Shown here: in pieces, positions 32,017-48,124 of the stretch | How positions within the stretch are numbered: the first letter of the stretch is position 1 | How the letters are laid out: the number at the start of each line of letters is the position of its first letter | Assembly: GCA_029213265.1 (NCBI GenBank) | Contig: JARGNG010000014.1 | Span: forward strand, 57,442-121,441 | Direction of reading: 5' to 3' | Source of the DNA: Verrucomicrobiales bacterium | Lineage (GTDB): Bacteria > Verrucomicrobiota > Verrucomicrobiia > Verrucomicrobiales > DEV007 | DNA length: 64,000 bases | Notes under the pieces: generated by a model | Databases searched by the model: none | Told to the model about the DNA's origin: nothing | The model's input: the letters and a program-made list of their open reading frames with translations, nothing else | Program-made: the position numbers and the translations under genes

Positions 32017-33819
32017 CTACTGGCGTGAATTCCGATTCCGGTTGCTCTTTTTCCGGTTCTTGCTCTGCTTCTTTTTTCGAACCACAGGGTGTGGAGCCGG
32101 ACTTTCAAAATCCTGAAATACCGATGCTCCGGGAAGGAACACATTGTCAGGAAGCTCATCGCCGATCTCCGTATTTCGACGGATGATTTTGGCGAGGCTC
32201 TGCTGTTCGATCATTTCGATGAGGGGACGGGGGAGATAGTTGCGATAGTAGAAGCGATCTCCGTCGCGAAGGCGGCGAAATTGATCTCCGAGAACGATGG
32301 AAAGCGTCTCTCCTACCATGGCTCCTTCGAGATGCGTCTCCGCCAGCATGCCAACCCAGCAATCGATCCCATCGACTGAGCCGTAGACCGAAGCCAGGTT
32401 GGCAACCACATCCGCGTCCTCACTGATTTCTTGAAAGCTCGCGACGGCGGGAAGTCCGAAGTCTACTCTCATCTGATTGTAGTCCGGAAGACCATGATCT
32501 CTTCCGCGCTGAATATTGAGAGAGGCGAGGTCGAATCCGCCTGCTCCGGGAGGGCCGAAGAGAAAGTTGCGAACCTCATCAATCAGTTGTGCATCGATGC
32601 TTTGGCAGTTCTGAGCAGCGAGCCCGCGCAGGATCGGAGCGATTCCGAAGTCGAGGATCTCGCCGGGATTGAAAAACGCATCGGCGAGGGAAACGTGTCC
32701 CCCGGATATTTCATCTCCATTGGCATCAACCCGAAGCAGGGTAGGGGAAAGCATGGTGTGCCCGACGCGATAGGCGGCTGCAGCGAATTCATTCCCGATC
32801 GCGGGATTCACCTGGGGTTTGTATCCCGAATAGGCGGGGAGGCCTTTCCTGCCAAGCAGAAGCGGAAGGAATTCCCGGTAGGTGATCGACTGCATCTCGG
32901 AGGACACAATGATTCGCGCCATCTGGTAGAGTTCTTCGTCGCTCAGTGTGGGATCTGCCGTAGCAAGGGTTCCGGCCCAGTGGTTATGCTCCCGCACAAA
33001 CAGGGTATGCATCGCGACCAGTCCCAGTTGCTCATTTGCACGGACGTCGCCGGCGAGGAAGAAGGCAGAACTGGTTGAGCCGGCATTGGGAAGTTCCTCC
33101 TCATTGAAGGGAAGAAGATCGCCATCGCTAGTTTTCAGCATTCCGGTTCCGTCCAGGGTTCGAAGGGCAAAGGAGCGTTCATCATCCGAGCCGTAGACAT
33201 TCGAAGCGTCGATGTAGGAGGTAATCGCATTGACCTGTTCACGAACGCCGTCGACGACCTCGTAGAGAGATCGATTCAACGCGATGGTCTGCGTTCCGGT
33301 GTGGAAAGGATCAAACCAGGAATCGCCCGTGGGAACTTGAATATCGAAGGCCTCCTCCGGGCTGATCGTCGGTGTTTCGACAATGTCATGATCGAGGAAC
33401 TGGCCCCACTGCCACAGATAGTCGGTTGCACCGTAGTCATTTTCCACTGCTGCGCCCTGTGCGAAAATTGCATTGCTCACCTCCCGTGCACTGGGACGGC
33501 CTTCTCCGGCAGGGCTGTCGAGGCCATCGGTGTAAGCGATCGAAGCGAGGCGAAGAACGGTGGTCTCTGCTGAACCCCAGGTCGGATTGGTGAGATTGTT
33601 CCCCGCGCCATCGATCGTTCTGGTTTCCAGCGGAAACTCCATCATGACTTCGTTTTCCTCCGGCACAGGAGCAGGCGTGCGGGATGCCGGGTGTTCCCGT
33701 CTCTCCATCGGCCGCGGAATTCCGGCGGGGCGTCGGTCGCTACCCTGACTCTGGGCGATGTTTGAGATACCCGGGCAAATGCCGAGGGCAAGGACAAGCA
33801 ATTGGGTTTTAATTTTCAT
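32017..33819 (-). CDS. Secreted animal-type heme peroxidase family protein
   Basis: [63 protein letters not shown]; Lys/Arg-rich C-tail. Confidence 0.92.
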
Positions 33820-33979
33820 CTCTCTATTGGGGTTTGGGTTGCTCTTTCGTTTGTCTTTTTCGCTCGCGGAATGAGAGCGACTTTTTCTTTTCATCCCCAG
33901 TTTCCCCCCTTCGAATGAAGAAAGTGCCTTCGATGGCATTACAATTCTGTAATCGGGCGAAGGAATCCTTCCTTCGGGA

Positions 33980-33996
33980 CTGGCACGACCCTTGCT
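33980..33996 (+). promoter_or_regulatory. Sigma-54 (RpoN) -24/-12 promoter
   Basis: CTGGCACGACCCTTGCT: GG (33982-33983), 10 nt, GC (33994-33995); matches YTGGCACG-N4-TTGCW. Confidence 0.75.
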
Positions 33997-34022
33997 ATAT
34001 AGGGCTCGAACAGAGCCCCCCC

Positions 34023-35459
34023 ATGTTCGACAATTATCAGAAAGAAAACTTCTTTGACGAGATGTTCGCCAATTCCACCGGGCGACCCTTTCCTCACTAT
34101 GAACAGTTGAAAGATCGATTCGCCGGACTCGGGATCGACGAACTGGAGGAAAAGCAGCATCGCGTCGACAACGGCTTTCTTCAGCAGGGCGTTACCTTCA
34201 CGGTCTATGGCGACGACGAAGGAACCGAGCGGATTTTCCCTTTCGACCTGATTCCACGCATCATTCCCGATTCAGAATGGAAGCTTCTGGAGCAGGGATT
34301 GACGCAGCGAATCATCGCCCTCAACCTCTTCCTGAACGACATCTATCACGGGGAGAAAATCATCAAGGATGGAATCATTCCCGAAGACGTCGTGAAAACT
34401 GCCGCCCACTATCGGCCGGAGATGATCGGGGTGGATGTGCCGGGTGATATTTACATTCACATCTGTGGCAGTGATTTGATCCGCGACGGAGATGGCAACT
34501 ACCTCGTTCTGGAAGACAACGGGCGATGCCCTTCGGGAGTTTCCTACCTTCTCGAAAACCGGGAGGCGATGAAACGCGCTTTTCCCCGCCTCTATCGCCA
34601 GTGCGGTGTTCGGGCGGTGGACCGTTATCCCGACCTGCTCCTCGAAACACTCCGGCACCTCTCGCCCCGACCGGGACAGACACCGGTTTGTGCCCTGCTC
34701 ACTCCGGGGGTCTACAACAGCGCCTACTTTGAACACACCTTTCTCGCTCACAAAATGGGAATTGAGATCGTGGAGGGACGCGATCTCATCACGTCAGACG
34801 GCTACGTCTACATGCGCACGACGAAAGGCCTCGTTCAGGTCGATGTGATTTATCGGAGACTCGACGACGATTTTCTGGATCCCACTGTTTTCCGGAAAGA
34901 CTCCATGCTGGGGGTGCCCGGACTGATGGATGCCTATCTGCGCGGAAACGTGGCTCTCGCCAATGCCGTTGGAACCGGGGTCGCTGATGACAAGGTGACC
35001 TATGCCTACGTTCCTGACATGATTCGTTACTACCTCGACCAGGAGCCGATTCTGGGGAATGTTCCGACGTATCTTGCGTGGAGAGAGGAAGACATGAAGT
35101 TTATGCTGGAGAACCTTCCGACCCTTGTCGTTAAAGCCGCCAACGAATCCGGCGGCTATGGAATGCTGATGGGGCCCGCCTCGACCAAGGAGGAACAGGA
35201 TGAGTTTGCGGACAAAATCCGGGAAAACCCGAGAAATTACATTGCCCAGCCGGTGGTTTCCCTTTCCCGCCACCCCACCATTTGCAACGAGCACATCATT
35301 GAAGGCCGTCACATTGACCTTCGCCCGTTTATCCTGTATGGGCAGGATATCAACATCATTCCCGGTGGACTCACCCGGGTCGCTCTCAACAAAGGTTCCC
35401 TCATCGTGAACTCCTCCCAGGGAGGCGGAAGCAAAGACACCTGGGTTCTCAACCACTGA
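34023..35459 (+). CDS. Circularly permuted type 2 ATP-grasp protein
   Basis: [69 protein letters not shown]-like region; [20 protein letters not shown]. Confidence 0.93.
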
Positions 35460-35469
35460 TTCACACGAT

Positions 35470-36450
35470 ATGCTTTCCCGCGTCGCCAACAGCCTTTACT
35501 GGCTCAGCCGTTACCTCGAACGGGCAGAAAATCTTGCCCGGATTGTCAATGTCAGCAGCTACGCTTCTCTCGATGCGGGAGGTGATGAATATGTGTGGAG
35601 ACCGGCGTTATTGGCCACCTGCAGCGAGGAAATTTTCGAAAAGGCGCAGGAGGAAGAAAGTGGAACGCTTGACGTGGGCAGGTTTATCACTTTTTCAAAT
35701 TCCAATCCGGACTCCATCGCAGCCTGCATTGGTCATGCCAGGGAAAACGCGCGCATGGTTCGCGATCAGATTTCGGAAGAAATGTGGCTGGAAATCAACA
35801 GTTTCCATCTCTTCATGCGATCGCGGGATGCGCGGGAACTTTTTTCCCGGCAGCCCGAGGCGCTCTATCGCGAGGTCATTAAATTCTGTCTCCTCTACGA
35901 AGGTCTCATCGAGGCAACCATTCTTCATGACGAAGGCTGGCAATTTATTCAGGTCGGTAAATTTCTGGAGCGATCCGACAAGACGAGCCGGATTCTCGAC
36001 ATGTTGACCTATCACGATTCGATCGACCGGAATCAACTCGTCTCCGTTCTTCGCTCCTGCTCAGGATTCGCCGCCTTCCGAACGGAATTCCGGGGAGATG
36101 TCATGACGGAAAATGTCGTGTCCTTTCTCCTCTTCTCCCAAACGTTTCCCCGTTCGATTCGCTTTTGTCTTCGGCAACTAGACAGCGTTCTTCACAAAAT
36201 TTCGGGCATGCCAAGCGGTTCTTTTGCCAATGAAGGGGAGCGACTTACGGGCAGTATCCTTGCTCAAATGAATTTCTCAAATGCACACAGCGTGTGGGAA
36301 GTGGGGCTCCACAGTTACATTGACGACCTTCAGGGACAGCTCAATCAGATTGGACAAAAGGTGTTTGAAACATATGTACTGCTTCCTTCCGAAGTTCGGA
36401 ATGTAGTCCGCGTCGACTCGTTGCAGATGCAGTGGCAGCAGCAGCAATAA
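35470..36450 (+). CDS. Alpha-E domain-containing protein
   Basis: MLSRVANSLYWLSRYLERAENLARIVNV, ENARMVRDQISEEMWLEINSF, RSIRFCLRQLDSVLH. Confidence 0.93.
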   Translation: MLSRVANSLYWLSRYLERAENLARIVNVSSYASLDAGGDEYVWRPALLATCSEEIFEKAQEEESGTLDVGRFITFSNSNPDSIAACIGHARENARMVRDQISEEMWLEINSFHLFMRSRDARELFSRQPEALYREVIKFCLLYEGLIEATILHDEGWQFIQVGKFLERSDKTSRILDMLTYHDSIDRNQLVSVLRSCSGFAAFRTEFRGDVMTENVVSFLLFSQTFPRSIRFCLRQLDSVLHKISGMPSGSFANEGERLTGSILAQMNFSNAHSVWEVGLHSYIDDLQGQLNQIGQKVFETYVLLPSEVRNVVRVDSLQMQWQQQQ

Positions 36451-36456
36451 GTCATC

Positions 36457-37311
36457 ATGCGCCTGCACGTCCATCACCGCACCGAATACCGCTACTCCGA
36501 TTTCGCTACGGAGAGTGTCAACGAGTTGCGATTGACACCGCCGACAACGAAATACCAGTCCTGCGAGTCCAGCTTTATCTCTGTCCTTCCTGCGGTTCGA
36601 CTCACTCACTACGAGGATCTGAACGTGAATCGGGTTCATCACTTTGAGATACCCGAACCTCACAGTCGACTCGTTATCGAAAGCCGGGCAACGGTTTCGA
36701 CCCGTAGTAAAGTGGATTTTGAGGACCTGCCCTACGGCTTTCCCCATTCCCGTCTCGGCATCTGCCGGAGACTTGAAGATTGTCACCCCTTTTTGCAGGA
36801 CAGCACCTTCATTGAGCGGACTCCTCAGGTCTGGCGCGAGGCTCTCGATGTGCAGGCTTTTTCCACAGATGTCTTCCAAACCAGTTATACGCTGATGGAA
36901 TATATCTACGAGAATTACGAGTACGACGCGGATGCGACAACGGTTTCCACTCACGCAAATGAAGTCATTCAGGAAAAGAGAGGGGTATGTCAGGATTTTG
37001 CCCACGCGATGGTGGCGCTCTGTCGTTCCATTCAAATTCCGGCCCGCTATGTGAGCGGCTATTTCTTTGATGCGACACGTGATCAGCACCTCCGGGGTTC
37101 CGAGGCCTCCCATGCCTGGGTAGAGGTCTACATCGACGGGCACGGATGGATCGGGCTCGACCCGACCAACAACAAAGTGGTCGATGAAACCTACCTCATT
37201 TTGGCACGTGGTTGCGATTATCGGGATGTGCCGCCCGTTTCCGGCACCTATTCGGGATCGGGGCATAGCGCGCTGGTTGTGCACGTCCAGTTGACCCGGC
37301 TCGGAGATTGA
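36457..37311 (+). CDS. Transglutaminase family protein
   Basis: MRLHVHHRTEYRYSDFATESVNELRLTP; RGVCQDFAHAMVALCRSIQIPARYVSGYFF; ASHAWVEVYIDGHGWIGLDPTNN. Confidence 0.95.
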   Translation: MRLHVHHRTEYRYSDFATESVNELRLTPPTTKYQSCESSFISVLPAVRLTHYEDLNVNRVHHFEIPEPHSRLVIESRATVSTRSKVDFEDLPYGFPHSRLGICRRLEDCHPFLQDSTFIERTPQVWREALDVQAFSTDVFQTSYTLMEYIYENYEYDADATTVSTHANEVIQEKRGVCQDFAHAMVALCRSIQIPARYVSGYFFDATRDQHLRGSEASHAWVEVYIDGHGWIGLDPTNNKVVDETYLILARGCDYRDVPPVSGTYSGSGHSALVVHVQLTRLGD

Positions 37312-37381: not shown

Positions 37382-38908
37382 ATGTTTGATACCGCCGAAC
37401 TGGATCGCAAAGTTTCCAAGCACGACTACGCCGAAAAGGCCCCGCCGCTTCGTCAGGAACTCCTTGAAACCCAAATTCAACTGACAAAAGAACCGTTCCC
37501 GGTCATTGTCCTCTTTGGAGGTGTCGACGGAGCCGGGAAAAGTGAAACCATCAATCTGCTGCACGAGTGGCTCGACCCCCGTTGGCTCATTGCCCGCGCG
37601 TATGGTGAACCGACTGAAGAGGCCGCCCAACGCCCCGCCTTTTGGCGTTACTGGAGAGACCTGCCGCCCAAAGGACGCATCGGTTTTTTTCTGAGTGCCT
37701 GGTATTCCGACCCCATCCTGAACCGGGTCCAGAACGCAACGACCGAAGCGGAGTTCGATGAATCGCTGGATCAAATTCTGACCTTCGAAAAAGCGCTCGC
37801 AGACGACGGTGCCCTGGTCGTGAAATTCTGGATGCATCTCGGTCGGGAGGCCCAGCACAGGAGGCTTAAGCAACTGGAAGATGATCCTCTCACCCAGTGG
37901 AGGGTGAAGGAAAAGGACTGGGAAAACTGGGAGCGTTACGATGATTTTGCCGATGCGGCGGAGCGGGCCATTTCGAAAACGAGTCGCGGCCCTTCCCCCT
38001 GGCACATCGTTGAAGGCGCCGACGAGCGCTACCGGACGCTGTCTGTTGCCGGAACACTCCTGGAGCGAATTCGCAGGCATCGAAAAGTGCTGGAAGCAAA
38101 AGCGATCGGCGAAGCCGAAGCCTTGAGTGCTCCTGTAGATGTCGATCGTGTTCCCGAGCTATCCTACAATCCCACTCCGGAGGTTACCATTCTGAGCCAA
38201 CTCGACATGTCGTTGGCAATTCCCAAGCCGGAATACAACGAACGCCTCGAAAAATTGCAGGGGAGGCTCGATCAGCTCTCCCGCGAAGCGAGGGATCGTG
38301 GCGTTTCCACCGTATGTGTCTTTGAGGGATGGGACGCCGCAGGCAAAGGGGGGGCGATTCGCCGGATCATTCCCGGCCTCGACGCACGCCTTTCTCAGGT
38401 CATTCCGATTCAAAAACCGAGTTCGGAGGAAAACAAATATCACTACCTTTGGAGATTCTGGCGCCACATACCGCTGGCGGGAAGGGTTACCATTTTCGAT
38501 CGTTCCTGGTACGGTCGTGTTCTCGTGGAACGGGTCGAAGGCTTTGCGACCGAAGTGGAATGGATGCGGGCCTATGCTGAGATCAATGACTTCGAAGATC
38601 AGTTGATCCACAATCAGACCGTTCTCTGTAAATTCTGGATGAACATCACCAAGGAGGAACAGGAAAAGCGTTTCGAACGCCGTCAATCACTTGCCCACAA
38701 GCAGTGGAAGCTGACCGAGGAGGACTGGAGGAATCGTGAGAAATGGGATGCTTACGAGGCTGCCGTCAATGAGATGGTGGAACGTAGCAGCACCCATCGT
38801 GCCCGCTGGACACTCGTGGAGGCGAACGATAAACGCTATGCGAGGATCAAGGTTCTCGAGACGATTTGCTCGGGGCTGGAGGATGCCCTCGAGAACGTGA
38901 GAGATTGA
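37382..38908 (+). CDS. Two-domain PPK2 family polyphosphate:AMP phosphotransferase-like protein
   Basis: Two kinase modules: GVDGAGKSETINLLHEWLDPR...SAWYSDPI and EGWDAAGKGGAIRRI...DRSWYGRVLVERVEGF. Confidence 0.9.
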   Translation: MFDTAELDRKVSKHDYAEKAPPLRQELLETQIQLTKEPFPVIVLFGGVDGAGKSETINLLHEWLDPRWLIARAYGEPTEEAAQRPAFWRYWRDLPPKGRIGFFLSAWYSDPILNRVQNATTEAEFDESLDQILTFEKALADDGALVVKFWMHLGREAQHRRLKQLEDDPLTQWRVKEKDWENWERYDDFADAAERAISKTSRGPSPWHIVEGADERYRTLSVAGTLLERIRRHRKVLEAKAIGEAEALSAPVDVDRVPELSYNPTPEVTILSQLDMSLAIPKPEYNERLEKLQGRLDQLSREARDRGVSTVCVFEGWDAAGKGGAIRRIIPGLDARLSQVIPIQKPSSEENKYHYLWRFWRHIPLAGRVTIFDRSWYGRVLVERVEGFATEVEWMRAYAEINDFEDQLIHNQTVLCKFWMNITKEEQEKRFERRQSLAHKQWKLTEEDWRNREKWDAYEAAVNEMVERSSTHRARWTLVEANDKRYARIKVLETICSGLEDALENVRD

Positions 38909-48068: not shown

Positions 48069-48124
48069 GAGATTTGTGGGTTCAGAAAGGACGGAGGAGG
48101 AGCAGGCAATATGCCACGATTTTC

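Follow-up and report, generated by a model that had tools for sequence, protein, structure and literature searches.

The window, i.e. the whole stretch of 64,000 nucleotides which was analysed, contains an operon encoding a circularly permuted ATP-grasp amidoligase, an Alpha-E protein and a transglutaminase-like protein. Its features, along with those of the upstream region, are reported in Table 1. The order of the three genes is retained in all 10 relatives examined. Neither the PPK2 gene, a possible fourth member of the operon, nor the divergent haem peroxidase gene is found beside the cassette in any of these relatives; PPK2 is private to the source genome, and both genes were discarded as parts of the conserved unit. 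The adjacent ATP-grasp, Alpha-E and transglutaminase genes are those of an Anbu-type operon; no Anbu protease gene was found in the operon of the window, where PPK2 and then an alpha/beta hydrolase gene come next. Protein tagging and peptide synthesis have both been proposed as roles of such cassettes, and the cassette probably serves in making or modifying peptides.

Table 1. Features of the amidoligase operon and of its upstream region, in window positions.
Feature	Position	Strand	Remarks
Animal-type haem peroxidase, divergent	32017..33819	-	PF03098; start set at signal peptide, 33819
6-bp dyad ATTACA-ATTC-TGTAAT	33938..33953	.	Arms 33938-33943 and 33948-33953; private to source genome
8-bp perfect dyad CGAAGGAA-TCC-TTCCTTCG	33958..33976	.	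Arms 33958-33965 and 33969-33976; private to source genome
-24/-12 (sigma-54) element TGGCACGACCCTTGCT	33981..33996	+	Exact consensus match; conserved in orthologs
GGGCTC-GAACA-GAGCCC dyad across predicted +1	34002..34018	.	Arms 34002-34007 and 34013-34018
Predicted transcription start (+1)	34007	+	Placed from GC at -13/-12
Predicted 16-nt leader without Shine-Dalgarno	34007..34022	+	ATG at 34023
Circularly permuted ATP-grasp amidoligase (CP_ATPgrasp_2)	34023..35459	+	Pfam PF14403, E 4e-161
Alpha-E protein	35470..36450	+	Pfam PF04168, E 3e-86
Transglutaminase-like protein	36457..37311	+	Pfam PF01841/PF08379
Polyphosphate:AMP phosphotransferase (PPK2), possible fourth operon gene	37382..38908	+	TIGR03708, above cut-off

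The first-pass annotation of this DNA had proposed a sigma-54 promoter, CTGGCACGACCCTTGCT, upstream of the ATP-grasp gene, with GG and GC 10 nt apart. The sequence was located at 33980-33996, with the -24 GG at 33982-33983 and the -12 GC at 33994-33995, and all other sequences quoted in that annotation were also found in their places, including the ATG at 34023. The element matches TGGCACG-N4-TTGCW exactly, with the GG-N10-GC spacing, and is the single exact copy of this pattern in the window, where looser -24/-12 matches are as many as expected from shuffled sequences (81 vs 81.0). Over the full 5.87 Mb of the genome, 8 copies of TGGCAC-N5-TTGCW were counted, vs 3 for the reversed control, while the looser TGGCAY-N5-YTGCT is uninformative (15 vs 13). 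The match taken by itself goes only modestly beyond chance and is no more than suggestive; for this reason, the promoter call rests on conservation.

Homologues of the ATP-grasp gene were detected in 62 of 96 genomes, and 58 orthologous starts were scored. In the procedure, the 150 nt upstream of each start are compared to a weighted -24/-12 consensus, whose weights, chosen by hand, give GG and GC the greatest influence, and a cut-off of 18.5 out of 22 is applied. A near-consensus element was found within 150 nt of the start in 54 of the order's 58 ATP-grasp orthologs, against 1.03 on average (at most 5) in 60 dinucleotide shuffles, 1 on the opposite strand and none in reversed sequences, so that the GG-N10-GC conservation which the first-pass annotation had named as a check is borne out. 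The GG, the C following it and the TGC are invariant in the 54 elements, an invariance partly selected for by the hand-set weights, and the spacer positions are free to vary. The distances between element and start codon span all three frames in the orthologs; coding conservation is therefore excluded, also for an upstream-extended reading frame (33834-35459) which had been considered.

Among the exceptions, the ATP-grasp gene of genome G065 lies behind a DUF2126 gene, whose own start has an element, and the second copy of G006 is internal, behind a transglutaminase gene. G041 has a weaker site, with a score of 18.0, and G016 is a cassette carrier without a nearby element, for which no explanation was found. 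Taken together, a sigma-54-type promoter upstream of the amidoligase operon has most likely been kept by nearly all relatives in the order.

The position of the element within operons was also evaluated. The DUF2126 gene is preceded by an element in all 10 scored genomes, source genome included, where it does not follow the ATP-grasp gene, and in none of the 13 where it lies downstream of the ATP-grasp gene in the same operon. ATP-grasp genes inside other operons (G065 and the second copy of G006) lack it as well. Presence at operon heads and absence from internal genes is what a promoter should show.

In a set of named genomes, a few records of which duplicate genomes of the first set, the element was found in 15 of 25 Verrucomicrobiota (0.5 in shuffles) and in 4 of 53 genomes from other phyla (0.8 in shuffles); cyanobacteria and Chloroflexi contributed none out of 11. 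Scores of at least 20 were reached by 4 of 10 plasmid-borne homologues (Burkholderia, Caballeronia, Halomonas, Acinetobacter); the distances of these sites vary, and their number is too small for a conclusion. A search of plasmid DNA with the promoter region gave no match.

An extended -10, TGCTATATA, had been offered as an alternative reading of the same stretch. This sequence does occur at 33993-34001, but it is not conserved: four or more of the six TATAAT positions are matched at the corresponding place in only 12 of the 54 orthologs, and A at position 2 together with T at position 6 is found in 9, while GG and TGC are kept. A scan for sigma-70 promoters reported none on the + strand at this site, and the shuffle control rules out chance for the element of the ortholog family. 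It is very improbable, therefore, that the operon is driven by a sigma-70 extended -10 and that its -24/-12 match is fortuitous.

The two stacked dyads described in the first-pass annotation are present upstream of the element, but neither is conserved, both being missing from all of the other 53 orthologous promoters, including those of orthologs 84-86% identical at the protein level; for this reason they were rejected as activator sites. They may be taken as the regulatory core, where a protein binding within 33938-33976, be it a repressor or an activator, would control the operon or the divergent peroxidase gene. The 8-bp dyad is indeed locally unlikely by chance (P about 0.012 over 110 mononucleotide-shuffled nt, as compared to about 0.12 for the 6-bp one) and, since it lies at about -40, a protein bound there would obstruct the polymerase. 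Against this reading, which we hold to be improbable, stand the lack of the dyads in the other orthologs, the peroxidase neighbour being likewise private to the source genome, and a position too near to -24 for an enhancer site of the usual kind. Both dyads are probably incidental and outside the mechanism. Enumeration of dyads upstream of the ATP-grasp genes (44 sequence clusters) and of the glnII genes revealed no family-wide motif, and no conserved dyad was found upstream of the operon by this search, which short, degenerate or far sites would escape.

The sequence of the GGGCTC hairpin, also noted previously, is present, but it cannot fold in the predicted RNA because its 5' arm, at -5 to +1, begins upstream of the predicted start. 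A start near 34007, with a leader of about 16 nt devoid of a Shine-Dalgarno sequence, agrees with the position of the GC at -13/-12, as already predicted in the first-pass annotation. Predicted leaders in the relatives are mostly between 0 and 45 nt, many of them 2-5 nt; roughly half of the 54 genomes would have leaders of no more than 5 nt, frequently followed by a GTG start. Should the starts map as predicted, leaderless or near-leaderless messages would be produced from a sigma-54 promoter. Predicted leaders of 2-5 nt with a GTG start at the ATP-grasp gene are found in much of the genus, at L026, L034, L036-L038, L050-L056 and other loci; at some of these, only a few nt separate the end of the upstream gene from the -24 element.

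A single rpoN gene was identified in the source genome (Sigma54_DBD match, E 2.7e-60, in a 469-aa protein), and rpoN is found in 90 of the 96 genomes, the rest being mostly incomplete. The source genome also encodes four proteins with strong sigma-54 AAA matches. Three of them (C142, C64 and C139) have an intact GAFTGA loop, which is required for contact with sigma-54; the loop is missing from the fourth, a protein of the NtrC family (G000:C121, L005), which is probably no longer a sigma-54 activator. The presence of rpoN and of enhancer-binding proteins, another check named at first pass, together with the retention of GG-N10-GC in relatives, upholds the proposal of a sigma-54 promoter for the operon. 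The NCBI ntrC model is the best match for two of the activators, with about 437 bits, below the equivalog cut-off of 558.6.

The C142 NtrC-like activator (G000:C142:24875-26305) was found in 47 of 57 genomes searched, and in every cassette carrier among them except for one genome which is 52% complete. The f2 family has the C139 activator but neither the C142 activator nor the cassette, and both P-II and a close glnII are missing from it. G020, the sole well-assembled member of the genus without the C142 activator, is 96% complete. Both rpoN and the C139 activator are present in this genome, but the cassette is missing, and none of its two glnII genes and P-II gene examined has an element. G020 is a single natural case and the association is correlative only. 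On the basis of this phyletic pattern, the C142 protein is the leading candidate activator for the operon.

In the source genome, elements of the same type are found in front of the genes for glutamine synthetase II and P-II, and of one for an ABC binding protein of the urea/sulfonate type. The DUF2126 cassette, a porin-like gene in divergent orientation, dnaK and an hsp20-type gene are likewise preceded by one. In front of glnII the element was found in 30 of 30 genomes, plus 7 of 7 further genomes, and in front of the P-II gene in 25 of 29. The operon, glutamine synthetase and P-II have this promoter type in common, as expected of members of one nitrogen regulon. The elements before the hsp20-type gene and dnaK (L044 and L046; G000 C80 and C120) are near-exact, hinting at sigma-54 control of these chaperone genes. 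For glnII, most of the promoters in the genus (L236-L265) have TTGACAA or TTGACAAT directly 5' of the -24 TGG, which suggests an overlapping sigma-70 -35 element.

The P-II promoter (L188/L080, G000:C64:4884-5258, and L003) features a dyad, TGGTAA-N5-TTACCA, which is conserved and in many cases tandem. It lies about 92 nt 5' of the -24 element and adjoins a divergently encoded NtrC-like activator gene. The dyad is likely an activator site. It was evaluated as an enhancer common to the P-II promoter and the operon, and discarded, as it occurs only at P-II. Its absence from the operon implies that the P-II-linked activator is not the obvious one for the operon.

The explanation which best accounts for these data, and which we consider probable, is that 33981-33996 is the sigma-54 promoter of the operon, responding to nitrogen through an activator of the NtrC family and belonging to one regulon with glnII and P-II. 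Sigma-54 RNA polymerase would bind the element as a closed complex, to be remodelled by an NtrC-family ATPase active when nitrogen is short, and transcription would start near 34007, yielding an mRNA with a very short leader. Besides the operon, the regulon would comprise the genes for glutamine synthetase II and P-II, the gene of the ABC substrate-binding protein and a second amidoligase cassette, that of DUF2126. An upstream activator-binding site is usual at such promoters, although not strictly required, and some activators act without binding DNA. Because no conserved upstream activating dyad was found at the operon, a point which counts against the explanation, the C142 NtrC-like protein may act from solution or through a site which escaped recognition. 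The carriage of the cassette by G016 without a nearby element also counts against it.

The occurrence of the element before dnaK and the hsp20-type gene, a further counterpoint, leaves room for a wider stress signal. The promoter may be a genuine sigma-54 promoter answering to envelope, protein or general stress through C139 or the P-II-linked activator, in which case the operon would share only the sigma factor with glnII and P-II. This alternative is judged unlikely, even if the P-II promoter and the operon have no activator site in common and the biochemical role of the operon is only putative. In fact, C139 is also present in genomes of the f2 family, devoid of the cassette, while the C142 activator, the cassette and the glnII element vanish together, and a homologous operon of Pseudomonas putida is induced by nitrogen limitation (PMC8050072, PMC7801951). 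A nitrogen-responsive sigma-54 promoter is accordingly the preferred reading, by which the cassette would probably be part of the response to nitrogen shortage.

The P. putida genes in question, PP_2685-2688, form the Anbu operon. They are upregulated under nitrogen limitation, the effect is attributed to NtrB/NtrC, and a reporter with the PP_2688 promoter responds when nitrogen is depleted (PMC8050072, PMC7801951). The first-pass statement that no description of RpoN control was known for this cassette has consequently to be revised, at least to the extent that such nitrogen induction had already been reported for a homologous operon. The two operons have the same ATP-grasp, Alpha-E and transglutaminase genes; that of the window differs in lacking the Anbu protease gene, in belonging to another phylum and in its very short predicted leader. 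In addition, nitrogen induction of PP_2686-2688 and urtA persisted in an rpoN mutant (PMC7801951; column order inferred from text), which counts against the explanation preferred here and is a caveat on the sigma-54 reading in that species. The proteasome-type protease COG3484 (Anbu) is enriched for sigma-54 promoters in Proteobacteria (PMC12316311); the text of that report names neither the ATP-grasp and Alpha-E COGs nor the Verrucomicrobiota operon.

Classical NtrC/sigma-54 promoters, such as that of enteric glnA, share with the operon the -24/-12 architecture, the presence of NtrC-family activators and the co-occurrence with glutamine synthetase and P-II promoters. They differ in that no recognisable upstream activator site was found at the operon, the synthetase is of type II, and the activator of the source genome is only NtrC-like, below the ntrC equivalog cut-off. 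The conservation at the level of the phylum, the putative regulon and the very short predicted leaders appear to be new, the first two not having been found described. To our knowledge, few sigma-54 targets have been tested in Verrucomicrobiota. An order-wide promoter common to glutamine synthetase and P-II indicates nitrogen starvation as the condition in which the product of the cassette should be sought, and the analysis provides a candidate activator, C142, and a natural comparison genome, G020.

A broader generalization may be put forward tentatively, and with rather less confidence than the assignment of the promoter itself. Across Verrucomicrobiota, amidoligase cassettes, glnII and P-II might form a sigma-54 nitrogen regulon under one NtrC-like activator, with no recognisable enhancers at the cassettes, and in much of one genus the cassette mRNA might be leaderless or nearly so (0-5 nt, often with GTG).

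A second sigma-54-like element, TGGCATATTGCCTGCT, was noticed on the - strand of the window, at 48101-48116. Its predicted start lies about 22 nt before an open reading frame of 190 aa for a small secreted protein.
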